Assembly (NCBI GenBank): GCA_018830645.1
Contig: JAHJSA010000072.1
Span: forward strand, 1-32,069
Source: Actinomycetota bacterium
GTDB lineage: Bacteria > Actinomycetota > Thermoleophilia > RBG-16-64-13
DNA length: 32,069 nt
Direction: 5' to 3'
Below the pieces are notes generated by a model. The model saw only the letters and a list, made by a program, of their open reading frames with translations. It was not told the origin of the DNA and searched no databases. This document shows, one piece after another, positions 9,409 through 22,794 of the stretch. A program made the position numbers and the translations under genes. Numbering within the stretch: position 1 is the first letter of the stretch; every line of letters begins with the position of its first letter.

Positions 9409-9451
9409 GTACGGTTATCTCCTCTTTTCCTGGAAGGTGTGTAACGGCACT

Positions 9452-11314
9452 ATGGCCGTAGAATTCTTCGACCGGATACTTCGTGGCGGGTGGAGAGCCC
9501 GCCTCATCGCGGCGTTCGCGGCTCTCGTGGCCGTGGTCGTGCTAGCGATTCTAGTGGATGCGGGCATCTCCTACAATCGCGTGCACCCCGGGGTGTCGGT
9601 GGCGGGCGTCGGTATGGGCCGCATGACCCCCGAAGCCGCGGAGGAAGCGCTCACCCGCAAGGTGGAGCGCGCGCGGAACAACAGTGTCACGCTGACCGCC
9701 GATACCGGCCGAGAGTGGTACCTGTTGCCTTCGGACGTCGATGTCCAGGTGGATGCAGCGGCCACGGCGAAGGAAGCCATGGCGGTCACGCGCACCGGGA
9801 GCTTCTTCGCAGACCTGCGGACCAAGTTCCGCCTCTACTTCTCCGGCACCGACGTGCCGCTCAGCGCGACGCTCGACACAGCACTCCTCGATGAGGTGCT
9901 CCTCGAGGTCACCAACACGCTCGACGTGGCGCCGGTGAACGCGGGCCTCGTGATCCGCGGCGACGACATCGAGATCGTCGACGGCAAAGACGGCCTCGTC
10001 GTCGATGAAGACGCGCTCCGCGACGGCGTGAAGGAGCTTCTGTTCACCCTCAGTGCGGGGCGGATCGATATCGCCATGGTGACCGAAGCCCCGGCTATCC
10101 AGGCGGCGGATACCAGCGAAGCGGTAGCCAAGGCCCGCACGATGCTCCACGGCAGCGTGGGACTCTCGTTCGAAGACGTGGTGTGGGCCCTCTCGCCTTC
10201 CGAGATCGCTTCCGCCATGGATTTCACCACCGAAGGCGAGGGCCCGCAATCGAAGCTGGTGCCGTACCTCTCGCACGACAAGTTGGCGGGCTTCCTTGAG
10301 ACGGTGGCGGTAGCGGTCGCGCGTGAGCCCAAGAAGGCCACGTGGGAGACCAACGGCGAGACCGCGACCCTCATCGCCGGGTCCCCCGGGCTCGCACTCG
10401 ACCCCGAGAAGACGGCGCAGGAGCTCACGCTCGCCGCGCTCTCCCCCGATTCCCGCGTCGCAAAGGTGCAGGCGGTCGAGACGCAGCCTTCGCGCACCAC
10501 CGAGCAGGCCAAGGCCATGGGCATCGTCTCCAAACTCGCCGGATACACCACGGAGTTCGGTGGGTCTGATGGGCGCCGGAAGAACGTGCAGCGAGCGGCT
10601 GAACTGATCAACGGCACGCTTCTGGCTCCGGGCGAGGAGTTCGATTTCGACAGGGTTGTCGGGCAACGGACCACCGCGAACGGTTTCACCACGGCTCCGG
10701 CGATCATCGCCGGCAAGCTCGAGGATTCGCTCGGCGGGGGCATCTGCCAGGTCTCCACCACCCTCTTCAACGCGGTGTTCTTCGCGGGTCTCGACGTGAC
10801 GGCACGCACCAACCACTCCCTCTACATAAGCCACTACCCCACGGGGCGCGACGCCACGGTGAGCTGGGGCGGCCCGGCCTTCCGCTTCAAGAACGACACC
10901 TCGAACTGGGTGCTGATCAAGTCGGCGGCGAGTTGGAGCAGTCTCACCTTCGTGGTCTACGGCACACCGGTGGGCCGCTCGGTCACCTACACCACGGGCG
11001 ACTGGTACGGCATCACCTCGCCCACCGAGAAGCGGGTGAAGACCGCCGAGCTGTTCGAAGGCGCGACGAGGGTCGTCGACGACGGTCAAACCGGCCGCAA
11101 GATCAAGGTCACCCGTACCGTGGTCGAGAACGGCACGACCGTACACTCCGACTCGTTCGTGAGCAGCTACCCTATGAAGCCGAAGGTCATCGAGGAAGGC
11201 ACCAAGCCCACCACCACGACCACCGTGGCGCCTCCTTCGACCATGACGACGAAGCCACCCGCTTCCTCCACGACGACCACCTCCACAACGACGTCCACGA
11301 CGACCACCCCCTAG
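9452..11314 (+). CDS. VanW family envelope protein with Thr-rich C-terminal tail
   Basis: A membrane-anchored wall-associated protein of about 620 residues. A basic N-terminus and one membrane helix (about 20-40) are followed by a long extracellular part. This contains probable peptidoglycan-binding repeats (PG_binding_4-like: VSVAGVGMGRMTPEAAEEAL and a second copy around 200-330). The VanW domain lies at about 370-500 (INGTLLAPGEEFDFD, then GGGICQVSTTLFNAVFFAGL and SHYPTGRDATVSW). The last 35 residues are almost only Thr, Ser and Pro. VanW was named from vancomycin resistance clusters, but its function is unclear, and this gene is no evidence of resistance. An in-frame GTG at 9437 is the other possible start; GGAAGG lies at 9432-9437. 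Confidence 0.87.
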   Translation: MAVEFFDRILRGGWRARLIAAFAALVAVVVLAILVDAGISYNRVHPGVSVAGVGMGRMTPEAAEEALTRKVERARNNSVTLTADTGREWYLLPSDVDVQVDAAATAKEAMAVTRTGSFFADLRTKFRLYFSGTDVPLSATLDTALLDEVLLEVTNTLDVAPVNAGLVIRGDDIEIVDGKDGLVVDEDALRDGVKELLFTLSAGRIDIAMVTEAPAIQAADTSEAVAKARTMLHGSVGLSFEDVVWALSPSEIASAMDFTTEGEGPQSKLVPYLSHDKLAGFLETVAVAVAREPKKATWETNGETATLIAGSPGLALDPEKTAQELTLAALSPDSRVAKVQAVETQPSRTTEQAKAMGIVSKLAGYTTEFGGSDGRRKNVQRAAELINGTLLAPGEEFDFDRVVGQRTTANGFTTAPAIIAGKLEDSLGGGICQVSTTLFNAVFFAGLDVTARTNHSLYISHYPTGRDATVSWGGPAFRFKNDTSNWVLIKSAASWSSLTFVVYGTPVGRSVTYTTGDWYGITSPTEKRVKTAELFEGATRVVDDGQTGRKIKVTRTVVENGTTVHSDSFVSSYPMKPKVIEEGTKPTTTTTVAPPSTMTTKPPASSTTTTSTTTSTTTTP

Positions 11315-11354: not shown

Positions 11355-11468
11355 GGACCCCCCAGCCAGGCCCCCGCCTGACATCGACCCGCCCGATGCT
11401 CAAGAGGTCGACGCGCGCGGCCGATACTCCATAGCGACGTCGCCGTACAAACAAGGGTGGGCTCCGGC

Positions 11469-12074
11469 ATGTTGCTACCGCTCCCAACGGCTGTTCAGGA
11501 TACGCCGGCCCGGGACATCTCAGAGGATGAGATCAAGCAGATAGCGGTGCAGGCGTCCCGCAACGACCCCGACGCCTTCTCCCGTCTCTACCGCCTGTAC
11601 TTCCCCCAGGTGTTCACCTTCATCAACTTCCGGGTGAGTTCGCGCGAAGACGCTGAGGATCTCGCGAACATCGTGTTCGAGAAGGCACTGTGCGCGATCG
11701 ATCGCTACCGGCCCAAACCAGCGCAGTTCTCCACCTGGCTCTACACGATCGCGAAGAACTCCATCATCGACCACTACCGGCGCCGCAGACTGCCCGTGGA
11801 CGACGAGGCCGAAGCCTCCGCCATCGCCTCGACGGACTGCAGCGCCGACCCGGTCGCCTGCCTACTCGACCAAGAGCGCAAGCGGACGCTTCGCGAGGCG
11901 CTCCACGCGCTCACCGACGAGCAGCGTGAGGTCGTGGAGTGCCGGTTCTTCTTCGAGCTGTCGATCCAGGAGACGGCGCAGGCGATGGACAAGACCGAGG
12001 GTGCGGTCAAGGCGATGCAGTTCCGCGCACTCGACAACCTGCATCGGCTCCTCACCGAGGACATCATCAGCTGA
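11469..12074 (+). CDS. ECF-type RNA polymerase sigma factor
   Basis: A sigma-70 family factor with only regions 2 and 4, 201 residues from ATG 11469, with AAGGGTGGG upstream. GTG 11457 is an alternative start. Region 2 spans about 30-110 (DAFSRLYRLYFPQVFTFI, then EDAEDLANIVFEKAL and FSTWLYTIAKNSIIDHYRRR). Region 4 spans about 140-195 (LTDEQREVVECRFFFELS, then IQETAQAMDKTEGAVKAMQ). No anti-sigma factor sits beside it: the upstream gene is the VanW protein and the downstream gene is convergent. The trigger is unknown. Envelope neighbours on both sides suggest, without proving, a cell-surface stimulus. Confidence 0.9.
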   Translation: MLLPLPTAVQDTPARDISEDEIKQIAVQASRNDPDAFSRLYRLYFPQVFTFINFRVSSREDAEDLANIVFEKALCAIDRYRPKPAQFSTWLYTIAKNSIIDHYRRRRLPVDDEAEASAIASTDCSADPVACLLDQERKRTLREALHALTDEQREVVECRFFFELSIQETAQAMDKTEGAVKAMQFRALDNLHRLLTEDIIS

Positions 12075-12168: not shown

Positions 12169-12194
12169 CGGCGGCCTAGATCATCGGGCCGCCG
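12169..12194. terminator. Hairpin between the sigma factor and the convergent zinc-ribbon gene
   Basis: An 8-bp inverted repeat CGGCGGCC / GGCCGCCG with a 10-nt loop overlaps the stop codon (12178-12176) of the minus-strand gene. It could end the seven-gene operon. No T-tract. Confidence 0.35.
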
Positions 12195-12871
12195 GGCGGC
12201 TTCGGACCAGGCAGCGGCTCGACCGTTGGTGGCGGGGCGGCCGCGGGTGGCGGCGGAGTCGCCGCAGCCGGCGGTTCTGCCGGTGGCGGAGGGGCTGCCG
12301 CAGGTGGTGACTGAGCAGGCGGTGGCGGTTCGGCCGCGATCGGAGGAGTCTGAGCGACGGCTGCCGGCCCGCCAGGCGCCGGCCCCGAAAGGTAGGTCTC
12401 GGCGCCGCAGAAGGGGCACTTCACGAGCCCTTTGCCCGCGAGTTCCACGGCTCCGCCACAGCTGGGGCAGCTACCCTCTGTGATGTTCGCCGCCTCGGCC
12501 GAGACCAGCTCACCCCCGTCCCAGTCGACGTACCCGGTGAAGAGTCCCTTGCCGATCAGATCGTAGATGTAGGCCCGCACCTCGTCGCGGCTGGCGTCGT
12601 TCTCGATGGCCAAGTCCGCAACCCCCACACGACCACGAGTGGTCACCGCGTCGAGTATGGAGCGCTGCTTGTCCACCTTGGTCTGCTGCTTGATCTCGCC
12701 ACCCGAACGCATGAGGAAATAGGCCCCCACGGCGAAGAACGGCAGCGAGAAGAGCACGAAGCCGAGGGCTGCGCCGGTGACGGAGCTCCCCGTCGCCACA
12801 CCGGCTCCCAGCCACACGGCTACGCCCGCCCCCACGATCATCAATACGATGCCCATCGTACGGCTCTGCAT
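12176..12871 (-). CDS. Membrane protein with winged-helix-like region, zinc ribbon and Pro/Ala tail (last gene of SPFH locus)
   Basis: A 231-residue protein of unknown function. Two membrane helices (about 7-27 and 31-53) are followed by a soluble part. Residues 65-120 look like a PCI/winged-helix fold (SILDAVTTRGRVGVADLAIE, then SRDEVRAYIYDLIGKGLFTG). A CxxC...CxxC zinc ribbon has Cys135, Cys138, Cys152 and Cys155. The last 65 residues are almost only Pro, Ala and Gly, probably disordered. ATG 12871 has AAGGAGG 4 nt upstream. It is the last gene of the minus-strand run from 19320 and lies 72 bp after the DUF2207 gene. The helices plus zinc ribbon recur across this locus, suggesting its products assemble together at the membrane. 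Confidence 0.8.
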   Translation of the reverse strand: MQSRTMGIVLMIVGAGVAVWLGAGVATGSSVTGAALGFVLFSLPFFAVGAYFLMRSGGEIKQQTKVDKQRSILDAVTTRGRVGVADLAIENDASRDEVRAYIYDLIGKGLFTGYVDWDGGELVSAEAANITEGSCPSCGGAVELAGKGLVKCPFCGAETYLSGPAPGGPAAVAQTPPIAAEPPPPAQSPPAAAPPPPAEPPAAATPPPPAAAPPPTVEPLPGPKPPGGPMI

Positions 12872-12943
12872 CGCGCCTCCTTGCGCTCGCCCCCGTCACG
12901 CCCCCGCGGTGTCACGCCCCGCAGCCTGGTTACGCTTCCCGGC

Positions 12944-14776
12944 CTACCCGGCCCGGAAGCCGCCTCCACCTCCGCCTCCAGAGAATCCTCCGCCGAATCC
13001 TCCCCCGGACCCCCCGCTGCTCGACCCCGAACCCGAAGGCGACGAGGTCAACACGCTCGACATGCTGTTCAGGCTACTGAACAAACCATCGGAGATGCTG
13101 TCGAGGCTGGGAACGCCGCCCCCACCGGGGATGCCCGACGGCAGCCCCGTGGACGCGCCGCCCGTGTCGGCCCACACCGGGCCGGGCTGATTCTGGGCGA
13201 TGATCACCGGCCGATACCAGGTGGGAGCCGGCAGCTGCATGTCTTCGAACCGGCGCACCCAGGAACGCTCCACCCCGAAGGCGATGGCATACGGCAGGTA
13301 CTTCTCGAACGTGTCGCGCGCCGTCTGCATGTCCTGATACCTGGTGAGATCCTTCAGGTAGTTGCGGAACGCCTCCCACTTGCGCTGCTCCGTGGCTCCG
13401 GCGGACGTCCTCTGGGGCATGAATCGAGAGAACCCGAGCACGGTGGCCCCCGAGATGAGGCCGCCCGCGAACAGCCAGCCCCACCCCGGCACGTCGCCCA
13501 TCGCCAGCAGGAAGGAGAGCCCGATCCAGGCGACGAGCACCAGAGCGCCGATCACCCCCCAGCGAGTACGGGTGCTCTTCGGGTTCCGGTCGAAGTACCC
13601 GAGCGTGGTGACCTCCTCGTAGATCTTCTTGGTGATGGGCTCCAAGCTCTTGTAGAACTCGTCTTTGAGATCACTGGTGTCAACCACTACCTTGCCGCCG
13701 AAGATCGCCGTGGCGACCTCCTTCTCGTAGCCCCTCAACTCCTCGATCGACTTGAGTCGCTTGAAGGTGGTGCTGGTCTTCCTGAAGAGCCAGAAACCAT
13801 CGCTCTCATCGGTCATCTCGAGATAGCCACGCCTCGCCAGGTCGACGATGGTGGCGAGCACTTCGCGCACTTCCACCCGCTCGTCGACGAGCGCTCCCGC
13901 CACGGCCGGGCGAAGGCCGGACGGAGGTTCGGTCACGAACGAGGCGTGCACGGCCGCGGGATCGTCACGACCGCGACGCGCCCAGATCACCAGCATGCCC
14001 AGGAACGTCAAGATGGGCAGCATGAAGCCGAGCCTGGGGAGCACGTACCCCGCGACCCTGCGGGCCGTCCAGGTGAACTTCACCACGTCCTTGGGGAATC
14101 CGGCCACCAGCCAGAACCGGGTGTAGGGCGCGAAATCGGAGCCCTGGTAGAAGAGCACGCCCGGCTCGGGACTCGTCACCGCCTCGGACGTGGCGAAACC
14201 GGTGTCTACCGCAGTGGTCATCTGCTCCATGGGGAGGGCGGCGGGGAGACGCACCGTGGCAGAGGCGTGTTCGATGGGCACCGGGGTGTCCGCGTCGAAC
14301 ACGTACCAGCGCAGCTCGTCTCCCTCGTCGAAGAAATGGATCGCACCCTGGGCTAGGTACTTGAAGGTCCAGGTGGCCGAAGTATCTTGCAGAGCGAAAT
14401 TCACCTGGATCACCAGGTCGGAGCCCTCGTAGAACGTGCTGTACGTGCCGGCGGCGTCCCCGCGCGGCAGTTCCCGGCCGTCCTGGAACACCTGGATGTC
14501 GTCGATGTCGTCGAGGTTACCTGTGGGGATCACCCTCCCCACGAAGGTGTAGGAGCCCTCGAAGGCGAAGGTGACGGTCTCTTCCACGACTACGTCACCC
14601 TTCTCCTGCACGTCGAGCACCACGTCCATGCGCTCGATGCGCCACTCCTTGGCCTCAGCGGCAGCCGGGAACCCGAGGAACACGGCGAAGGCGAGTGTGG
14701 CGGCCGCCAGGAAGGCGGCCGCCAAGACGGCGGCCGGTGCCGCCGTTCGCGTCCGCACCAACACCGAAGAACTCAT
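12944..14776 (-). CDS. DUF2207 domain membrane protein
   Basis: About 610 residues. A signal peptide or N-terminal helix (about 10-40, ending AEAKEW) leads to the extracellular DUF2207 domain (RIERMDVVLDVQEKGDVVVE, then VTFAFEGSYTFVGRVIP). One helix (about 250-270) is followed by a cytoplasmic winged-helix-like section (EVLATIVDLARRGYLEM), two further helices near 430-475 and a Gly/Ser-rich C-terminus ending GGGGFRAG. This order, including the glycine tail, is typical of DUF2207 proteins, whose function is unknown. ATG 14776 has AGGGGGTG upstream; GTG 14782 is also possible. It begins about 10 nt after the SPFH gene stop, so the two are probably translated together. Confidence 0.88.
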   Translation of the reverse strand: MSSSVLVRTRTAAPAAVLAAAFLAAATLAFAVFLGFPAAAEAKEWRIERMDVVLDVQEKGDVVVEETVTFAFEGSYTFVGRVIPTGNLDDIDDIQVFQDGRELPRGDAAGTYSTFYEGSDLVIQVNFALQDTSATWTFKYLAQGAIHFFDEGDELRWYVFDADTPVPIEHASATVRLPAALPMEQMTTAVDTGFATSEAVTSPEPGVLFYQGSDFAPYTRFWLVAGFPKDVVKFTWTARRVAGYVLPRLGFMLPILTFLGMLVIWARRGRDDPAAVHASFVTEPPSGLRPAVAGALVDERVEVREVLATIVDLARRGYLEMTDESDGFWLFRKTSTTFKRLKSIEELRGYEKEVATAIFGGKVVVDTSDLKDEFYKSLEPITKKIYEEVTTLGYFDRNPKSTRTRWGVIGALVLVAWIGLSFLLAMGDVPGWGWLFAGGLISGATVLGFSRFMPQRTSAGATEQRKWEAFRNYLKDLTRYQDMQTARDTFEKYLPYAIAFGVERSWVRRFEDMQLPAPTWYRPVIIAQNQPGPVWADTGGASTGLPSGIPGGGGVPSLDSISDGLFSSLNSMSSVLTSSPSGSGSSSGGSGGGFGGGFSGGGGGGGFRAG

Positions 14777-14785
14777 ACGCACCCC

Positions 14786-15967
14786 CTACGACGCGGGAGT
14801 GGGTGTGTCCTCGCCGCCTTGCGTCGTCGCGGCGCCTTCTGCCGCGCCGCCCTCAGGGGCGGCGGGCGGCGCGGCGGCGGCGACCGGAGCCGGCGCCCCG
14901 AGCTGCTGACCGCAGTTGGGGCAGAACTTCGAGCCCACCGCGAGCTTGGCCTGGCATTGCGGACAATCGACCGTGGCCTCCAGGTTGGTGCCGCACTCGG
15001 GGCAGAACTTGCTGTCGAAGGCGATATCCTTGGTGCAGCTGGGGCAGCGCATCTTCGGCTGGGTTCCCGATTGCATGGCCTGCTGCATCATGCCCGGGAT
15101 CATGAAGCCGAGGCCGGCGCCAACGCCCAGCCCCACGCCCGAGGCCGCCGCGTCTGCGATGCCACCGCCGCCACCACCGCCACCACCGACACCGCCGGCA
15201 CCACCGGCGCCGCCACCTTGGGCGATATCACCGATCGCCTGCGCGGCCTTGAATTGGAAGTAACGATCCATGCCGCCGATCGCCTCCATACCGGAGCGCT
15301 CGTCGATGGCCTTGAGCACTGCTTCCGGCGGTGTGATCGCGTTCACCACGAAGTCGACGAGCGCGAGGCCGTACTGGTAGAAGTCGTCCTTCACGCGAGC
15401 CTTGAGACCCGCGCCGAGCTCGTCGTAGTAGCGGGGCAGGTCGAGCACCGAGTCGAGACTCTCACCGAGCAGGTCAGACAGGCGCCCCACGATGATGCCG
15501 CGCAGGAAGTCTTCGATCTGCCTCATCGTATAGATGGATCGAGTCCCCACGAGCTTCAGCACGAGCAGCTTCGGGTCGACCACCTGGATACTGTAGATAC
15601 CGTTGGCCCGCAGGCGCACCATCTTGAACTCGGAGTCGCGGAACAGGACGGGCTCCGTCGTCCCCCACTTCTGGTCGGTGTAGACGCTGCGGTTGACGTA
15701 GTACACCTCGGCCCGGAACGGCGTGTCGCCGAAGAGCGGCGTGGTGATCAGCGCGGTGAGGAACGGGATGTTCTGCGTAGAAAGGGTGTGCCTGCCGACG
15801 CCGAACGTATCGAGCGCCTTGCCGTCTCGGAAGAACACCCCCCACTGGTTCTCGCGTACGATGAGCTGCGACCCCATCTTGAATTCGCCGGACCCCACCT
15901 CAGGAATGCGGTGGACGATCTCCTTCCCCGCCTGGTCGACAAACTCGATGATCTCCATCAAGGCCAT
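14786..15967 (-). CDS. SPFH domain protein (YdjI-like) with glycine-rich linker and two zinc ribbons
   Basis: A 393-residue protein of the SPFH/band-7 group related to B. subtilis YdjI. The SPFH domain spans about 30-230 (QLIVRENQWGVFFRDGKALD, then GVGRHTLSTQNIPFL and KWGTTEPVLFRD). Helices near 235-250 precede a glycine run (251-269) and a hydrophobic GLGVGAGLGFMIPGMM segment. Two zinc ribbons follow: Cys308/311/322/325 and Cys335/338/349/352. The tail is Ala/Pro/Gly-rich. In B. subtilis, YdjI is brought to the membrane by YdjG/YdjH and in turn recruits PspA. Here the partners would be neighbouring zinc-ribbon membrane proteins. ATG 15967 lies 6 nt after the stop of the upstream gene, with GGGAGGT in that gene's end: a tightly coupled pair. 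Confidence 0.92.
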   Translation of the reverse strand: MALMEIIEFVDQAGKEIVHRIPEVGSGEFKMGSQLIVRENQWGVFFRDGKALDTFGVGRHTLSTQNIPFLTALITTPLFGDTPFRAEVYYVNRSVYTDQKWGTTEPVLFRDSEFKMVRLRANGIYSIQVVDPKLLVLKLVGTRSIYTMRQIEDFLRGIIVGRLSDLLGESLDSVLDLPRYYDELGAGLKARVKDDFYQYGLALVDFVVNAITPPEAVLKAIDERSGMEAIGGMDRYFQFKAAQAIGDIAQGGGAGGAGGVGGGGGGGGGIADAAASGVGLGVGAGLGFMIPGMMQQAMQSGTQPKMRCPSCTKDIAFDSKFCPECGTNLEATVDCPQCQAKLAVGSKFCPNCGQQLGAPAPVAAAAPPAAPEGGAAEGAATTQGGEDTPTPAS

Positions 15968-15973
15968 ATCGCG

Positions 15974-16636
15974 TTACCTCCCCACGCCTGTGATCAGATG
16001 CTCCCGCTCGTTGAAACTCAGGTCGAGCGCCGTGACCCGTTCATCGAGGATCTCGAGGTCGCTGCGCACCGACGGGCTGTCCGCCGACAGCGTGCCGACC
16101 AACTCCTCGAGGTGACGCGCGTACTCCTGGCTCTGCACGTCGAACCGATAGAGGAGGTCGAGCACCTCGTCTCCCACCTTCACCGTGTCGAAGATGCCGG
16201 CGTAGCCGTAGTCGGCATAGAGATAGCGATCTTTCACCGTACGAAGCTTCCGCCCTATGCGATCGATGCCCGAGAGCAGCTGCAGATCGCCTCGATCGGT
16301 CATCTCCAAGGCGACTGACTCAAGGCCGCGGCGGGCCGTCTCGAGACGTTCGACCACGTAGTCGCGCTGGAGCTTGTCGGCCTCGCGGCGGAGTTCCTTC
16401 TGCTTGTAGCCTTTGTATCCGGGAATATGCTCGGCCGCCCGCTCGAACCAGTTCTTGCTCTCCTCGATGCGCTGCTCCACCCCGTCGATAGGGGGAGCGC
16501 CGATGGGAGGAGCGTCCATCGGAGGAGCGTCGACCGGGAGCATCTCCCGCGGCGCGCCACCCTCCGGTGCGGGCTGCCCGCTTTGGCCCTCGAAACCGCC
16601 CTCGGTGGCGGCGCCGTTCGTGATCTCGTCCGTCAC
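15974..16636 (-). CDS. Conserved-looking helical protein of the SPFH locus, function unknown
   Basis: A 220-residue hydrophilic protein without membrane segments or signal peptide. GTG 16636 is the start because GGAAGGAGA lies 5 nt upstream. The first 75 residues are low-complexity and include a Pro repeat (VDAPPMDAPPIGAPPIDG). The rest is charged and mostly helical (about 80-220). It begins with WFERAAEHIPGYKGYKQKEL, then ELRREADKLQRDYVVERLET, and is likely coiled-coil in part. Its stop overlaps the ribosome binding site of the SPFH gene, so the products are probably made in fixed ratio and may bind each other. A helical partner of an SPFH protein recalls PspA in the Bacillus system, but I see no PspA signature. 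Treat that as an idea only. Confidence 0.8.
   Translation of the reverse strand: MTDEITNGAATEGGFEGQSGQPAPEGGAPREMLPVDAPPMDAPPIGAPPIDGVEQRIEESKNWFERAAEHIPGYKGYKQKELRREADKLQRDYVVERLETARRGLESVALEMTDRGDLQLLSGIDRIGRKLRTVKDRYLYADYGYAGIFDTVKVGDEVLDLLYRFDVQSQEYARHLEELVGTLSADSPSVRSDLEILDERVTALDLSFNEREHLITGVGR
16484..16528. repeat. 15-bp tandem repeat, three copies, coding
   Basis: Units at 16484, 16499 and 16514 share the pattern G-x-C-x-AT-x-GG-x-GGAGC and encode the repeated APPxxG/D peptide in the unknown helical protein. Copies are diverged at several positions. Confidence 0.6.
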
Positions 16637-16756
16637 GTCAGTCTCCTTCCCGGGAGCGCCACGCCCAGTCGCGGCGAGCATCCCCTTCGATTCGTCCGTG
16701 CCTCAGAGTACCCTTCCCACGCAGTCGGCCCCTTACTCGTCTTCGCGGCCGCCCCC

Positions 16757-17455
16757 TCATGCCACCATCCCGTCAAACTCGCGAAGCAGTAGACGCCAGC
16801 CCGAGTCGCGCACGTAGCGCGGATCGAAGGCCGCGGGCAGAAAGAGTAACTCTCCGCCCGTGAGGCTCAGGTCGTAGTCGATGGAGCGGAGCCCCCGCGT
16901 CGTGCGTGATTCCAGCGCCAGGTAGACGAAGTGCGCCACCACTTCCGCGTCGGCGCGGCCCACCAGCACCGGGGAGAGCGTCCTGTCGTCGGGATCGTGC
17001 GCCCACCCTTCAGCGGTCACACTCGCCGCCTCGGACACCGCCAGTGGTCGCGTCGGACCTTCGTCCGGAAGGCCGTCGCGCAACTCCAGCTGCGGCTGGG
17101 CCTGGACCAATCCCAGCCCGAGCTGCTGCACGAGACCCCGAGCCAGAGTGAAGGCGGGGGCGAAGAGGAAGGGGGGGTCCGGCGCCGCGACACGTCGGAT
17201 CTGCTCCCACGCGCTCTCGGGTGGCGAGCCGCCGGCCGACCGCTTCTCGACGACCTCGACAGCAGCAAGGAAGCGCCAGACAGCCAGGTAGCGAACATCG
17301 GGGGGGATCGCCAACTCGGATGTCACGGCAGCGGTGCGAGGCCTTCCCTCAACGAGCGCTTCACCCTGTACCTCGAACGTGCGACCGCACGACCGGCACG
17401 GGAACACCCTTGCACCCTCCAGCACCTCCAAGGCAAGACCGCACGACGAGCACAC
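16757..17455 (-). CDS. Zinc-ribbon protein of the SPFH locus, unknown function
   Basis: A soluble-looking protein of about 232 residues. The N-terminal zinc ribbon is CSSCG...FPCRSCG (Cys2, Cys5, Cys20, Cys23 from the chosen start). The remainder is mixed alpha/beta and includes GLVQQLGLGLVQAQPQLEL and a C-terminal SIDYDLSLTGGELLFLPAAF. No membrane helix is evident, unlike the two genes upstream. GTG 17455, 13 nt after the stop of the previous gene, is the best start that keeps the first Cys pair, but it has no good ribosome binding site. The frame is open much further upstream, overlapping the previous gene, and that part does not look like real protein. The start is therefore uncertain. Confidence 0.72.
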   Translation of the reverse strand: MCSSCGLALEVLEGARVFPCRSCGRTFEVQGEALVEGRPRTAAVTSELAIPPDVRYLAVWRFLAAVEVVEKRSAGGSPPESAWEQIRRVAAPDPPFLFAPAFTLARGLVQQLGLGLVQAQPQLELRDGLPDEGPTRPLAVSEAASVTAEGWAHDPDDRTLSPVLVGRADAEVVAHFVYLALESRTTRGLRSIDYDLSLTGGELLFLPAAFDPRYVRDSGWRLLLREFDGMVA

Positions 17456-17468
17456 GAGGGCCAGCAGG

Positions 17469-18554
17469 TCAGGCGGAGAAGGGCTCGTGGTACTCGACCT
17501 CCCTAACGAGTCTGAAGCGCCAATACACACCGGAAGCGACCGCCAACACCAGCAGCGCCGCGTAGAGCGCAGGTTCCCTGAACCCCTCCAAAGACTCCCA
17601 CGCCGAGACCGCCAGAGCAAGCAGCAAAGCGAGTGCGGCATACGACGCGAGCAACGCGGCGAGGCGACCGCGGTTGTCGGCGGGAGCGCGGGCCGAGTGG
17701 ATCACGCCGTTGCGCCCGTCTACCGCCATCTCGTACACCCGGCCGCGATACCGGTAATGCAGCGACCAGATGGGATAGTAGATGAGCGCGTCGGACTGCC
17801 GAATGAGGAAGAGCTTGGTCTGCCGGGCGACCGTGCCGGTGGGTGGGCGAAGGAACGACTCGTGTGCCCGGACGCGCACCACCTCCAGGTCGCGATCGGC
17901 CTCGAGCACCACGGCTTCCCGCTCCAACTCGCCCACCAGGTACGGCAACGTGAGGTCCCGCCCGGTCATGAGGGGCCGGCTCATCCCCAACACCGAGATA
18001 TCCGCAGCCTCTTGATACATGCGACGCTCACCCAGGAACCCGGCTTCCACCCCCTCTTCCACCAGCCGGGTCTGGACGACCTCCTGATCACCCACGCGGA
18101 CCACCTCCGCCTTGTTGCGCAACTTCTTACCGAACTCCCAACCCACCACGTGGGCCCGCACTTCCCAGATGGGCACGTAGAGCAGGGTGGCGTCGGTGAA
18201 GGCCGATTCGGCGATATCGGAGGGCGTGCCGGGATGCTCGCGAAGCCAGCGCGACGCCCGCCCGACGGCGCTCAGCTTCTCTATGCGCGCGGGGTAGAAG
18301 CGACGTTCGAAGCCGCCTCGGGCCGGAGCGAGGAAGGGCGTGCCGCAATGAGAGCAGCGGATCATGTGGTCGCCGTCACGAACGGCGAGTGCGCCCGAGC
18401 ACCGGGGGCATGGCACCGACCTCAGCGTGGCGGAGCGCCGAGGCGACCGGTCAGCCGCTACCTCAGCAAGGACGCCGGTGGGGGCTTGGGGAGCGCCGAC
18501 CGCGGAGGGCGCGCCGGCCCGGGTGAGGGCGGCGGCGGTGAGAGGATCAGCCAT
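17469..18554 (-). CDS. Zinc-ribbon membrane protein (YdjG-like architecture)
   Basis: A 361-residue protein with an Ala-rich lead and one zinc ribbon (CPRCSGALAV...IRCSHCG; Cys49, Cys52, Cys67, Cys70). A long soluble region contains two copies of a motif around pairs of aromatic residues (ATLLYVPIWEVRAHV near 123-137 and ALIYYPIWSLHYRYRGRVYE near 255-274). Two membrane helices near the C-terminus (about 297-318 and 328-346) are followed by a short charged tail. Zinc ribbon, a 'YxPxW...YRGxxY' region and C-terminal helices also describe the gene upstream, so the two are probably diverged duplicates. The start ATG overlaps the end of that gene by 8 bp. Confidence 0.82.
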   Translation of the reverse strand: MADPLTAAALTRAGAPSAVGAPQAPTGVLAEVAADRSPRRSATLRSVPCPRCSGALAVRDGDHMIRCSHCGTPFLAPARGGFERRFYPARIEKLSAVGRASRWLREHPGTPSDIAESAFTDATLLYVPIWEVRAHVVGWEFGKKLRNKAEVVRVGDQEVVQTRLVEEGVEAGFLGERRMYQEAADISVLGMSRPLMTGRDLTLPYLVGELEREAVVLEADRDLEVVRVRAHESFLRPPTGTVARQTKLFLIRQSDALIYYPIWSLHYRYRGRVYEMAVDGRNGVIHSARAPADNRGRLAALLASYAALALLLALAVSAWESLEGFREPALYAALLVLAVASGVYWRFRLVREVEYHEPFSA

Positions 18555-19320
18555 GGCGCGCCACCGCCCAGCGCAACATCGGGTAGAGGCCCGCGGCAGT
18601 CACCACGATCACCACCACGCGGGCCGCCAGACCCGGCACCACGACGGCTTCGGCAAAGAGCAGGAGCAGCGCGCCCGCCGCTACGCCACGCTCTCCAAGC
18701 ACCTCGCGCCGAGCGGGTCTCCGCTCAGCGAGCACTCGACCCGACCCCGCTTCCACCACGGCGGTATAGCGGTCGCCTCGATACGAGTAGCGCACGGGGT
18801 AGTAGGCGCGGCGCTCCACCAGTACGTCGTCGACCTCGGGATCGGCCGCCGCGCGGCGGAGCTCCTCCTTCAGAAGGTCCTCGTCGATGGCGATGACCCG
18901 GGCGCCGGCCTCTTCGCCTTCCGCGGGAGGCTCGCCATCAAGCTGGGCGGGCACACCTCCCAAGTCGAGCACCTCTGGAGTGGGCAGGGGAGCCAGCGGC
19001 ACGACCACGTCGGCTCCGGTTCGCCGGAGCCGAAGGAAGTGGACGTAATGTAGCCCATCCACCTCGGAGATGGCTTCCTTTTCCAGGTCGTTCGGCCCCG
19101 CCGGGCTCGCGAACCACCCCCGCAGGAATCCGGCGGCTGCTTCCCGGGTAATGCGCGGCCGCTCGAACAGCCGATGCACGCGAAGACCTGTCCCCCTGCG
19201 CAACGACGAACGGCAGTGGGTGCAGGCGAACGTGTCCACCTGGTGCGGCACGGCCAGCAGGGCGCCGCACTGGGGGCAGGCCGTCTCCGATGTGACCAAC
19301 TCGCGATCGCGCACGTTCAT
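18547..19320 (-). CDS. Zinc-ribbon membrane protein, first gene of the SPFH locus
   Basis: A 257-residue protein. The N-terminal zinc ribbon is CPQCGALLAV...FACTHCRSS (Cys15, Cys18, Cys33, Cys36). A soluble domain includes VDGLHYVHFLRLRRTGADVV and RRAYYPVRYSYRGDRYTAVV. Two C-terminal membrane helices lie at about 208-228 and 230-250. It shares its plan with the next gene and overlaps it (stop TGA inside the following start region), which suggests translational coupling. There is no ribosome binding site before ATG 19320, but a TAGCAT hexamer ends 6 nt upstream, so the message may be leaderless. Function is unknown; the general layout resembles zinc-ribbon membrane partners of SPFH proteins. 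Confidence 0.82.
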   Translation of the reverse strand: MNVRDRELVTSETACPQCGALLAVPHQVDTFACTHCRSSLRRGTGLRVHRLFERPRITREAAAGFLRGWFASPAGPNDLEKEAISEVDGLHYVHFLRLRRTGADVVVPLAPLPTPEVLDLGGVPAQLDGEPPAEGEEAGARVIAIDEDLLKEELRRAAADPEVDDVLVERRAYYPVRYSYRGDRYTAVVEAGSGRVLAERRPARREVLGERGVAAGALLLLFAEAVVVPGLAARVVVIVVTAAGLYPMLRWAVARHG

Positions 19321-19382: not shown

Positions 19383-20924
19383 TCACGGAGCGGGAAGCCA
19401 GATCACGTAGGCCGCCGGGGCTTCGTACTCCTCGATTCCGAACGCGAACGGCCCTTTGATACTCTCGACTTCCAGCGAATTCAGCGTGAACCCGTGGGTC
19501 CAATCGGCACGTGCATAGAAGGCCGTGCCGAACAGCACCGCGCGCACCCCGGTGCGAGGTAGCTTCAACTGGGGCCGGTTCATCTGGAGGCCCCAATCGT
19601 CCCAGTAGTCGACGACCACCGCGTCGGGCCGGGTGTCCACGAGACCTCCCGGGGAGCTCAGCTCGAGGCGACCGATCTCCCGCCTGGATACGAACACCAA
19701 CGCGGGCCCGGTGTTGTCGAGTAGGTCCGAAGTAGCCAGGACGGCGGCATCAGGCGCCGTCACGTCGAGCACTTCGTCGAGGCGGTCCAGTCCGGAGTCA
19801 CCGTACTTGAGGGCGGCCATGGTCGCAAACGATAGGGTGAGGAGCACGGCGGCCATCGGCACGCCCACGACGAGCACACGCTTCCACGAATGCACGCCCA
19901 GATCCACCAGCGTGCGTCCAGTCAACACCGCCACCACTGGCGTGAGGGTCAGCAGGTAGTAGGTGTGGTAGTGGTAGACGAGGTAGAAGGCCACGTTCAC
20001 GAACAGCAGGAGCCAGACCAGAAGGTCGCCCTTCCCCCGCCGCGACACCGAGGACGCGAGGAACACGAGAAAGAGCGCGAACAGCACCGGGGAGACCATC
20101 CACATGGACTCGATGAGGAAGTACGTGGTGAGGAACGTGAGATCCGGCGGGTCGATGGTGCCGGCGAGACCGCGCTGAGAGGCGAGGAACTCGTCCGCCG
20201 ACGAGATCATGCGCAGCACGTACCAGGGCGCCGCAACCGCGACGAAGGCGACGAGAGCCGCGACGCCGCGGCGCACGGCAGGCCCGATGCGGCCACGCTC
20301 GCTGTATGCGACCCACACGGCGAGTGCCGGAAGGGCAAGAACAGCGGTGATCTTCGTAAGAACGCCGACCCCCAAGAGCGCGCCGGCGGCGGCGGCCGTA
20401 GCGGTACTCGACATGCGGACGGCACGCACGAAGAGGAAGACAGCCCCGGTGGAGAATGTCACCATCGTCGCATCCACCTGGACGTTGTGGCCGAGAAGAA
20501 CCGAGCCTGGCATCAAGGTGAAGGCGAGGGCCGCCATGACTCCGGCCTTCTTCTCGTACAGTTCAGTGGTCAGCCCGTACACGAACACGGTCCCCAGTGC
20601 CGAGAAGGCCGCCGAGACCGCCCGGGCCGCGACGACACTCGGCTCGAACACCTGGAACGCGATCGCCACCATCACCGAGAACAGCGGAGGGTTGTTCTGG
20701 TCGCCGGGCGCGAGAAGGGCGGACGCCAGGCCACGCTCCACGTATCCTTGGGCCTGGGCCAGATAGAAGCCCTCGTTGAAGGCGTGGAACCCCCCGAGGG
20801 AATCGCCGGCCCTGTAGACACGGAGGGCGAACGCCACCAGGGTCAATGCCCCAACCGCGAACAACGGCCAGTGACTTCGGACTCGGGGTGGGAACACGAA
20901 CCGCTCCTTGTGAACGAACGCCAT
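19383..20924 (-). CDS. GT39-type (ArnT/PMT-like) membrane glycosyltransferase
   Basis: A multispanning membrane protein of 513 residues from ATG 20924, 19 nt after the preceding stop; the open frame extends to 20969. About 11-12 hydrophobic helices are visible. The first extracellular loop carries the family's acidic motif region (GFHAFNEGFYLAQAQGYVER, then LLAPGDQNNPPLFSVM). A long run of helices ends near residue 370, and a soluble C-terminal domain of about 140 residues follows. GT39/ArnT-type enzymes transfer a sugar from a polyprenyl-phosphate donor to a protein or lipid acceptor outside the cytoplasm. The upstream genes supply a matching synthase and flippase. The sugar and acceptor are unknown. 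Confidence 0.85.
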   Translation of the reverse strand: MAFVHKERFVFPPRVRSHWPLFAVGALTLVAFALRVYRAGDSLGGFHAFNEGFYLAQAQGYVERGLASALLAPGDQNNPPLFSVMVAIAFQVFEPSVVAARAVSAAFSALGTVFVYGLTTELYEKKAGVMAALAFTLMPGSVLLGHNVQVDATMVTFSTGAVFLFVRAVRMSSTATAAAAGALLGVGVLTKITAVLALPALAVWVAYSERGRIGPAVRRGVAALVAFVAVAAPWYVLRMISSADEFLASQRGLAGTIDPPDLTFLTTYFLIESMWMVSPVLFALFLVFLASSVSRRGKGDLLVWLLLFVNVAFYLVYHYHTYYLLTLTPVVAVLTGRTLVDLGVHSWKRVLVVGVPMAAVLLTLSFATMAALKYGDSGLDRLDEVLDVTAPDAAVLATSDLLDNTGPALVFVSRREIGRLELSSPGGLVDTRPDAVVVDYWDDWGLQMNRPQLKLPRTGVRAVLFGTAFYARADWTHGFTLNSLEVESIKGPFAFGIEEYEAPAAYVIWLPAP

Positions 20925-20943
20925 GAGACCCGGCAGCGGAACC

Positions 20944-21327
20944 CTAACCCGCGGTGCCGGTGAGCACAACCGTGACGACCCCGACGATCACAAGGGCGAG
21001 CCCCAGAAGCTGCAACCGCGAGAACGGCTCCCCGAGCAGCACTACGCCCACGAAGGGGACGAAACCGTAGGCCAACCCCATGAACGGGTACGCGAACGAC
21101 AGATCCGAGCGCGAGAGCACCACCATCCACCCCGCGGCCGACAGCACGTACAGCGAGACGCCGACGGAGAGTTCGACCGTGCGCACCATCGTCGACACCA
21201 GCGGTAGTGGGCTCAGCATGCGAGAACGATCGATGGGGCCGACCTTCAGCATGCCGAGTTTGAGGAACGTCTGCCCCGCCGCGACACCGGCGACGACGGC
21301 GAGGATGAGCAGGAGGTCACGCCCCAT
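20944..21327 (-). CDS. SMR/EamA-like four-helix half-transporter (ArnE/ArnF-like), second copy
   Basis: A 127-residue protein of four membrane helices. It starts MGRDLLLILAVVAGVAAGQT and contains LSAAGWMVVLSRSDLSFAYP and FVGVVLLGEPFSRLQLLGL. Its ATG overlaps the last 11 bases of the preceding gene, a close paralogue, so the two are made together and probably pair. ArnE/ArnF, which flip an undecaprenyl-phosphate sugar, are a pair of small proteins of this type. The flanking GT2 and GT39 genes support the same job here. A drug-efflux SMR role is a less likely alternative. Confidence 0.8.
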   Translation of the reverse strand: MGRDLLLILAVVAGVAAGQTFLKLGMLKVGPIDRSRMLSPLPLVSTMVRTVELSVGVSLYVLSAAGWMVVLSRSDLSFAYPFMGLAYGFVPFVGVVLLGEPFSRLQLLGLALVIVGVVTVVLTGTAG

Positions 21328-21778
21328 CGCGCGACTCCTCCCGCGGACCGGCGGGACCAGAGAGGCCGGCGGAGCCGGCGGCGGCCGAGTCATCGTCGCG
21401 CGCAAGGTCTCCGCCCCCCACCAACACTACCCCCAGGGCGACGAGCAGAACGCCGGCCCACCGCCATGCGGACACCTGCTCCCCCATGAACACTCCGGCG
21501 CCCACAACGAACAGGTACGACAGCGCGCCGAAGGGATACACCGCCGACAACCTCAACCGCGACAGAACGACCAGCCATACGGCCGAGGAGAGACCGAACA
21601 GGACGATGCCACCCAGCGCTTCCGGACTGCGGGCGGCCGTCGCGAGCACGGCACCCGCTCCCCGACCCGTCGCCGCACCCACGCCCGCCTTGAGCAGCAT
21701 CTGAGCCGAGGCGCCCAGAGCTACGCTCAGCAAGGCCAGCACGTAGGGGCCCGACCCTCGCCCCCGCGCCCTCGTCAC
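21317..21778 (-). CDS. SMR/EamA-like four-helix half-transporter (ArnE/ArnF-like), first copy
   Basis: A 153-residue protein from GTG 21778 with four membrane helices (about 15-37, 52-75, 80-100 and 108-126) and a 25-residue hydrophilic tail. It shares WLVVLSRLRLSAVYPFGALS and VFMGEQVSAWRWAGVLLVAL with its neighbour. The Trp-x-VVLSR...YPF pattern is the SMR/EamA core. It begins 38 bp after the GT2 stop and its end overlaps the start of the second copy. A TTG upstream is an alternative start. Together the two copies make up one EamA-sized transporter, probably a polyprenyl-phosphate sugar flippase. Confidence 0.78.
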   Translation of the reverse strand: MTRARGRGSGPYVLALLSVALGASAQMLLKAGVGAATGRGAGAVLATAARSPEALGGIVLFGLSSAVWLVVLSRLRLSAVYPFGALSYLFVVGAGVFMGEQVSAWRWAGVLLVALGVVLVGGGDLARDDDSAAAGSAGLSGPAGPREESRDGA

Positions 21779-21816
21779 TGGAGAAGACGCGTCGACCCTC
21801 TCCTCGGCTGCGCGGG

Positions 21817-22653
21817 TCAAGGCCGCCGGCTCCGCCCATACCCAGGGCTCCGCCCATACCGCCGGTTCCGCCCAAACCTCGGGCTCCGCCCATACCGCCG
21901 GTGTCGCCAAGCGATCTCCGCGTACGACTTGACCGTGGGTATGATCCGGATGGCGCTGCCTTTCCGTTTGACGTCGTATCGGAGCACGAAGGGTATCTCG
22001 GAAAAGCAGGCCCATTCCTTGAGACCCAGAAGAACCTCGAACGTGTAGCCGAAGCCGCGTTCGGTGATCAAGCCGGGGCGGACGCCGTCCATCGCCGCCG
22101 CCAAGACCCTCACGTCGTACAGCCGGTAGCCGCAACTGTAGTCGCGCACCCCATCCACAGGTGCCAAGAGAAACGCCGCCGCCCTGACCCCGAGGCTCAG
22201 CACGCGCCGGTGGGCGGGCACCCCCACCACCTCCGATCCCCTGCGAAAGCGCGAGGCTATGACCACGTCCGACCCGGCCGAGTAGGCGTCGAGAAGCCGC
22301 GGGATGTAGACGGGGTCGTGAGTGAGGTCGGCGTCCAGGGTCACGATCACATCGCCCGCCCGCCCGAGGTCCACGGCTCGGCGCAGGCCCCGCGACATAG
22401 CTCCCCCGAGCCCGAGGTTGCGCTCGTTGACCAGTATCTCCGGCCACGTACGGTCGCTCGCCGACCTCACGACATCCGCGGTACCGTCGGTGCTGCCGTC
22501 ATCGACCACGATGATGTGATGCACGACACCGACCTCGTCGAGCACTTCGGCGATCGATCCGATCAGCTCCCCTATGCTCGACGCCTCGTTGAACGCCGGC
22601 AGGACGACGAATACGCGCCCAACCGGTCGGCGGCGGCCGCCGGAGCAGGTCAC
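21817..22653 (-). CDS. GT2 polyprenyl-phosphate glycosyltransferase (DPM1/ArnC-like) with basic repeat tail
   Basis: A family-2 glycosyltransferase that would place a sugar from a nucleotide donor onto polyprenyl phosphate on the inner face of the membrane. It has VFVVLPAFNEASSIGELIGS, the acidic IIVVDDGSTDGTADV, NLGLGGAMSRGLRRA and the DxD motif VTLDADLTHDP. FVLRYDVKRKGSAIRI follows near the end of the domain. It is 278 residues from GTG 22653, chosen for GGAGG 5 nt upstream; ATG 22722 is an alternative. There are no C-terminal membrane helices, so it is the soluble DPM1-like type. The last 25 residues are a basic repeat (YGRSPR/FGRNRR units) encoded by an 18-bp tandem repeat. Confidence 0.88.
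   Translation of the reverse strand: MTCSGGRRRPVGRVFVVLPAFNEASSIGELIGSIAEVLDEVGVVHHIIVVDDGSTDGTADVVRSASDRTWPEILVNERNLGLGGAMSRGLRRAVDLGRAGDVIVTLDADLTHDPVYIPRLLDAYSAGSDVVIASRFRRGSEVVGVPAHRRVLSLGVRAAAFLLAPVDGVRDYSCGYRLYDVRVLAAAMDGVRPGLITERGFGYTFEVLLGLKEWACFSEIPFVLRYDVKRKGSAIRIIPTVKSYAEIAWRHRRYGRSPRFGRNRRYGRSPGYGRSRRP
21828..21899. repeat. 18-bp tandem repeat, four copies, coding
   Basis: Units start at 21828, 21846, 21864 and 21882, with consensus GGCTCCGCCCATACCGCC; the second and fourth copies are identical. They encode the six-residue repeats ending the GT2 protein, just before its stop codon at 21817. Confidence 0.9.
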
Positions 22654-22794
22654 GGTCCCCTCCGGGTTCGGCGATGCGCGGGGTGCGCCGCCTCTCCGGC
22701 GGGCGATCGGGGCGGCCGGCATCCTGGATGGCAGGCGCTCATAGGCGAGTAGTATAGCCCCCGCGGGCGCGGGCCTCACGCGACGACGCGGGCC

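Follow-up and report, generated by a model that had tools for sequence, protein, structure and literature searches.

A conserved gene pair for a four-helix protein and a zinc-ribbon SPFH protein within a seven-gene membrane locus of Actinomycetota

Introduction

SPFH proteins are found in all domains of life. According to the literature that we found, the membrane delivery and the partners of the soluble, zinc-ribbon kind have been studied in Bacillus only, with PspA and YdjGH. In B. subtilis, the membrane recruitment of YdjI and PspA is the work of YdjG and YdjH; the example shows that an SPFH-zinc-ribbon protein which is itself soluble may depend on two membrane proteins for its localization, and that it then recruits PspA (PMC8581546).

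The window analyzed here, by which we mean the whole 32,069-nucleotide stretch of DNA from an Actinomycetota bacterium, carries an SPFH gene in a row with genes for membrane and zinc-ribbon proteins. Which of these genes belong together, and which of them encodes the partner of the SPFH protein? A sequence-only reading had proposed a common complex of seven proteins. We compared the locus with related and distant genomes and find its interpretation partly supported.

Results

Seven minus-strand genes with six zinc ribbons

An ORF check of the window confirmed seven open reading frames on the minus strand at 12176-19320, in the order g1 to g7 from upstream to downstream (Table 1), and the Pfam domains attributed to them beforehand were found. 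The remark that several of the genes overlap or lie within 15 bp of each other is true of g1-g2 (-8 nt, an overlap), g2-g3 (13 nt), g4-g5 (6 nt) and g5-g6 (9 nt); g3-g4 (120 nt) and g6-g7 (72 nt) are wider gaps. We corrected the start of g3 to a GTG near 17455. The start of g4 is probably the GTG at 16636, with GGAAGGAG before it. The gap upstream of g4 could provide room for a separate promoter; a scan of the locus matched no sigma-70 promoter, and its terminator-like matches were no better than chance.

Table 1. Genes of the locus and the neighboring sigma factor gene
Gene	Position	Strand	Features
g1	18547..19320	-	Zinc ribbon, PepSY/YpeB-like region, C-terminal membrane helix; g2 paralogue
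g2	17469..18554	-	Zinc ribbon, repeated YxPxW alpha/beta region (YpeB-like), C-terminal membrane helices
g3	16757..17455	-	N-terminal zinc ribbon, no membrane helix; GTG start inferred
g4	15974..16636	-	Four-helix protein; PGYxGYKxKE-RREAD and ADYGYAG motifs; variable Pro-rich N-terminal tail
g5	14786..15967	-	Soluble SPFH protein (Band_7_1, PF13421), Gly-rich linker, two C-terminal zinc ribbons
g6	12944..14776	-	DUF2207 membrane protein: signal/anchor helix, further membrane helices, Gly-rich tail ending GGGGGGGFRAG
g7	12176..12871	-	Two N-terminal membrane helices, possible winged-helix-like region, zinc ribbon, variable Pro-rich tail
sigma-70-family (ECF-like) gene	11457..12074	+	Convergent to the cluster; near it in many family genomes

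The count of CxxC...CxxC motifs agrees with the earlier one, six zinc ribbons over five proteins: two in g5 and one apiece in g1, g2, g3 and g7. The ribbons of the latter four score weakly in Pfam, yet their CxxC pairs are intact and are invariant in family alignments. The hydrophobic helices also lie where the sequence-only reading had placed them, since a hydropathy scan detected them C-terminally in g1 and g2 and N-terminally in g7.

The SPFH protein g5 is of the YdjI kind. It has a Band_7_1 domain (E 1.8e-56, 191.6 bits against a cut-off of 24), a C-terminal double zinc ribbon (DZR, 43 bits) and, by hydropathy, no transmembrane helix, and the likeness to YdjI that had been noted fits at the family level. 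In g6 both DUF2207 (PF09972; 9.1e-16, 59.0 bits, cut-off 24.4) and DUF2207_C (PF20990; 3.8e-47, 161.5 bits, cut-off 33) pass their thresholds, and g6 is therefore a member of the DUF2207 family. A weak match to FeoC (0.007) was obtained for g7, which has a mean column identity of 61% in its family alignment. The Pfam search identified no TPM domain in the seven proteins and no PspA among the seven genes; the absence of PspA noted earlier is thus right for the locus, while PspA is encoded elsewhere in the genome, on contig C64.

A second DUF2207 protein is encoded in the same genome (G000:C97:46522-47043, L001); it is 48% identical to g6 and has the same Gly-rich C-terminus. A sister genome (L050) has an extra DUF2207 copy immediately after g7.

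On the far side of the sigma factor gene, and likewise convergent to the cluster, is a gene for a VanW/peptidoglycan-binding/G5 protein (9437-11314, plus strand) that stays near in many family genomes. A regulatory tie of these two genes to the cluster is possible. Upstream of the cluster, at 19383-22779 on the minus strand, are genes for a PMT_2-type and a family 2 glycosyltransferase and for two membrane proteins that by eye look like small multidrug-resistance proteins; this gene set resembles a lipid-linked sugar locus.

The gene order is kept within one family

We searched 99 related genomes, mostly metagenome assemblies like the others compared in this study, for relatives of the SPFH protein and retrieved all 16 matching neighborhoods. 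Outside the genome of the window, close relatives turned up in 16 genomes, all of its own family; the other families of the class that were sampled had none. Across these 16 genomes the gene order was invariant, down to about 35% identity. The genes g3, g4 and SPFH were together in every locus; 15 loci had g2, 14 had g6 and g7, and 9 had g1, counts that are affected by some loci running into contig ends. Two genomes (L063 and L065) lacked g6 and g7 after the SPFH gene, and in L063 the sigma factor gene comes next. The seven-gene set is more than a chance arrangement, since 16 further family members share its order. The SPFH gene was found in 17 of 18 family genomes and a clear PspA gene in only 7 of the 18.

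Conserved co-occurrence was the test that the sequence-only reading had named for its proposal. The g1-g7 order holds family-wide, and beyond the family a smaller unit, g4 with SPFH, recurs in several phyla of bacteria and among archaea.

The four-helix family of g4 is almost undescribed

The protein encoded just upstream of the SPFH gene had been described as Pro-rich and helical. The second half of that description stands: a structure model gave helices at residues 77-115, 121-139, 156-181 and 190-216 with high confidence, preceded by a disordered N-terminus. The Pro-rich part, roughly residues 1-65, is modeled as disordered, is missing from most orthologues and is incidental. By alignment and model, the conserved part is the four-helix domain with its two motifs (Table 1), of which ADYGYAG lies in the loop that joins helix two to helix three.

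No Pfam family covers g4, and searches of Pfam, PHROGs, PADLOC and PDB sequences gave nothing credible; a literature search, largely confined to papers outside subscription, found none on this protein. The nearest named relative is NCBIfam NF047596 (the LIMLP_15305 family, after a Leptospira gene), which was matched at E <=0.01 by 22 of 24 aligned g4 relatives, with 4e-16 for an acidobacterial g4 as the best match seen. Each of them falls far short of the NF047596 cut-off of 210 bits (13 for the g4 domain of the window, 59.5 for the best relative). Judged by these scores, g4 is distant kin of NF047596 and not a member. NF047596 has no assigned function, and our literature search on NF047596/LIMLP_15305 returned no function and no SPFH link; the one paper found that names the gene mentions it only as the neighbor of a non-coding RNA. 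We consider g4 an almost undescribed family.

An HMM of g4 matched 153 of 300 genomes in Thermoproteota, 44 of 297 in Acidobacteriota, 21 of 294 in Planctomycetota and 13 of 14 in Coatesbacteria. Actinomycetota yielded 8 matches in 296 genomes, one of them doubtful. Among 195 genomes from the phylum to which an Erysipelotrichaceae genome belongs, a weak search, run with no positive control, found no g4. A match in genome G146 (E 2.6e-6) was dismissed as spurious.

Could g4 be a distant membrane remodeler of the PspA/ESCRT-III type, and the locus a divergent PspA-YdjGHI or ESCRT-like operon? Genes for PspA and ESCRT-III do adjoin SPFH-zinc-ribbon genes, in Firmicutes and in the archaeal Meth_adaptin loci (PMC8581546, PMC10936438), and CdvB, an ESCRT-III protein, tops the Foldseek list for g4. 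That match is not significant (E 0.16, TM 0.25). Helical bundles have a high background, and our fold searches gave only generic helical bundles, including IncA, whose Z of 13.9 is near the stated background for such folds. A profile comparison of g4 with PspA of related genomes by hhalign gave a probability of 0.15%, and on this comparison we rejected homology to PspA. The g4 model has four mid-length helices rather than the long ESCRT hairpin, and none of the seven genes encodes a Vps4-type ATPase. We therefore regard this explanation as very unlikely.

g4 and the SPFH gene are linked in bacteria and archaea

We scored a g4 gene as linked when an SPFH gene lay on the same strand no more than 200 nt downstream. 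We examined 112 loci from five phylum-level groups; in 95 an SPFH gene directly followed g4 by this measure, and the median gaps ranged from a few to some tens of nucleotides. Linkage was complete in the family (16/16), in other Actinomycetota (3/3), in Planctomycetota (10/10), in the best-scoring Thermoproteota (30/30) and in one further set of g4 loci (5/5). It reached 8 of 10 loci in Acidobacteriota, 6 of 13 in Coatesbacteria and 17 of 25 in a lower-scoring Thermoproteota set that was deliberately chosen among weaker matches. One locus labeled Zixibacteria (L018) looks like its Bathyarchaeota relatives and may be misbinned. Unlinked g4 genes were found in six Coatesbacteria (L111-L116), where they have another gene context, and in a few Thermoproteota and Acidobacteriota. 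Five of those six Coatesbacteria genomes have an SPFH gene of the g5 kind elsewhere.

Trees of g4 and of SPFH from 87 linked pairs each set bacteria apart from archaea with zero misplaced rows. The pairwise distances of the two proteins were correlated (r=0.77 overall, permutations <=0.12; r=0.87 within archaea), a correlation that can also arise from shared species history. In a separate SPFH tree that included weaker rows and rows without g4, 51 of 54 archaeal rows fell on one side with full support, and the other three, all long-branched, fell among bacteria. Within Actinomycetota, the SPFH genes nearest to g5 were from genomes that have g4, and remoter ones (E 1e-20 to 5e-80) were from genomes that lack it. 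On a proteobacterial plasmid from Comamonas (L222), an SPFH gene that has no g4 with it adjoins a gene for a TFIIB-type zinc ribbon protein.

SPFH and zinc-ribbon proteins are known from some conflict systems, and PADLOC reported weak matches to the zinc ribbons of the locus. None of these was credible, however; g4 was not found in plasmids and was confirmed in no viral contig, which disfavors a mobile-element origin, and its steady co-inheritance with SPFH also speaks against a mobile island. That the locus is a mobile defense island is therefore extremely improbable.

That g4 and SPFH are neighbors in many archaea and bacteria suggests a membrane-organizing unit that is old and has hardly been studied; as a cross-domain gene pair it appears to be previously undescribed. 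In its fullest form, this interpretation would make g4-SPFH an ancient two-gene membrane-organizing unit, possibly predating the split of bacteria and archaea, in which a zinc-ribbon SPFH scaffold has the PspA-unrelated four-helix g4 as its obligate partner and to which individual lineages later added DUF2207 and YdjG-like anchors. We put this forward tentatively, as a possibility with somewhat less than even chances.

Membrane and zinc-ribbon partners differ between lineages

The remaining genes vary more. By hhalign, g1 is a paralogue of g2 (98.4%, E 5e-15), and g3 aligns with g2 over the ribbon and the following strand (93.9%). An AlphaFold model of g2 (pLDDT 79.7) has a confident alpha/beta core, built from two helix-plus-sheet units and followed by C-terminal membrane helices. 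Its best informative fold match was YpeB (5boi; Z 6.7, rmsd 2.0 over 65 residues), below the level that proves homology, and YycI scored lower. The match agrees with the YpeB-like domain published for YdjG and falls short of proof.

The arrangement g4-SPFH-DUF2207-g7, lacking g1-g3, occurs in two other actinobacterial families, and g6 was present in all three loci sampled from other actinobacterial families. In archaea a g2-like zinc-ribbon gene often adjoins g4-SPFH, upstream or downstream (21 loci). The genes g1-g3 were missing beside g4-SPFH in the sampled other actinobacterial families, Acidobacteriota and Planctomycetota. Because they are missing there while g4-SPFH persists, the best description of the cluster is a core of g4 and SPFH with lineage-specific membrane and zinc-ribbon partners. 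The seven genes form a conserved cluster in the family, and the common complex of seven proposed from sequence stays a conjecture.

One could go further and take the seven genes as co-localized with separate functions, g4-SPFH being the only functional unit and g1-g3, g6 and g7 neighbors by descent. The absence of g1-g3 from those lineages and the two family genomes without g6 and g7 next to SPFH are consistent with this. On the other hand, g2-like genes recur at the archaeal loci and g6-g7 in other actinobacterial families, so descent within one family is an insufficient explanation, and we hold such independence to be distinctly unlikely.

Several other proteins are encoded at archaeal g4-SPFH loci. 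Three of these loci encode a coiled-coil protein with a C-terminal zinc ribbon (L015:1743-2882, L017:5090-6229, L018:4731-5786), whose middle looks like PH/GRAM by eye and gives weak Pfam matches only. A thermoproteote has a small multi-helix membrane protein gene after SPFH (L121:2471-2893; no Pfam match), and a similar membrane protein is encoded near g4 in L123 (6917-7339). A 545-aa membrane protein of L015 resembles DUF2207 by eye; Pfam does not confirm this, and it was left uncounted.

At two Bathyarchaeota loci the gene right after SPFH encodes an M48 (HtpX-type) protease (L015:4583-5623, confirmed by Pfam; L017:8004-9029, assigned by sequence likeness). SPFH rings are known to surround proteases, as HflKC does with FtsH. 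The g5 protein might similarly act with a protease or as a quality-control chaperone, like HflKC and stomatins, and g4 would then be a regulator or client adaptor and not a structural partner. The seven-gene set contains no protease gene, however, and we judge this alternative unlikely.

Discussion

We propose that the locus encodes a chromosomal SPFH membrane scaffold that protects membrane proteins under envelope stress, a model to which we give roughly even odds. Like other SPFH proteins, the soluble g5 would form large rings on the inner side of the membrane. g4, encoded a few bases upstream and presumably made in step with g5, would bind it as a dedicated partner or adaptor, replacing PspA as the conserved soluble partner. 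In the lineage of the window, g6, g7, g1 and g2 would anchor and instruct the scaffold, and the zinc ribbons could serve as protein-docking modules. The assembly would probably organize or protect membrane proteins in envelope stress, like PspA-YdjGHI in Bacillus. A role in maintaining the membrane or its proteins under stress is the likeliest one, plausible by this analogy and because a DUF2207 mutant of S. mutans is sensitive to acid and peroxide (PMC10457818).

A partner gene just upstream of SPFH in about half of the sampled Thermoproteota and in several bacterial phyla offers a testable second answer, next to that from Bacillus, to how such proteins reach the membrane and with whom they act. 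The partnership would give a function to the unnamed g4 family and a context to DUF2207.

Comparison with known systems

The archaeal Meth_adaptin ESCRT loci likewise place an SPFH gene with a zinc ribbon beside genes for other zinc-ribbon proteins. They carry Vps4, ESCRT-III and adaptin-appendage proteins, none of which is encoded by the seven genes of the window, and we found no g4-like gene described for them (PMC10936438). The SPFH8 and SPFH9 groups of a 2009 survey of prokaryotic SPFH proteins are, like g5, predicted to be soluble and free of membrane helices; the survey lists for them no documented members, no zinc ribbons and no partners (PMC2636767).

A close parallel is with pspA-ydjGHI of Bacillus, from which the locus differs in several respects. 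It has no PspA, and it has DUF2207 where Bacillus has YdjH. The two are not counterpart families, since YdjH is a TPM-domain protein (PMC11237479). The four-helix g4 is absent from the Bacillus operon, and the window adds the zinc-ribbon genes g1-g3 and g7. Other features are alike. Both systems have an SPFH protein with a C-terminal zinc ribbon and no membrane helix (PMC8581546) and, by prediction for the window, a separate membrane anchor protein. YdjG combines a YpeB-like domain with a zinc ribbon and a membrane helix (PMC11237479); g1 and g2 have the ribbon and the helix, together with a possible YpeB-like region. In both, finally, an ECF sigma factor is in the picture, sigma W in Bacillus and the product of the neighboring sigma gene here.
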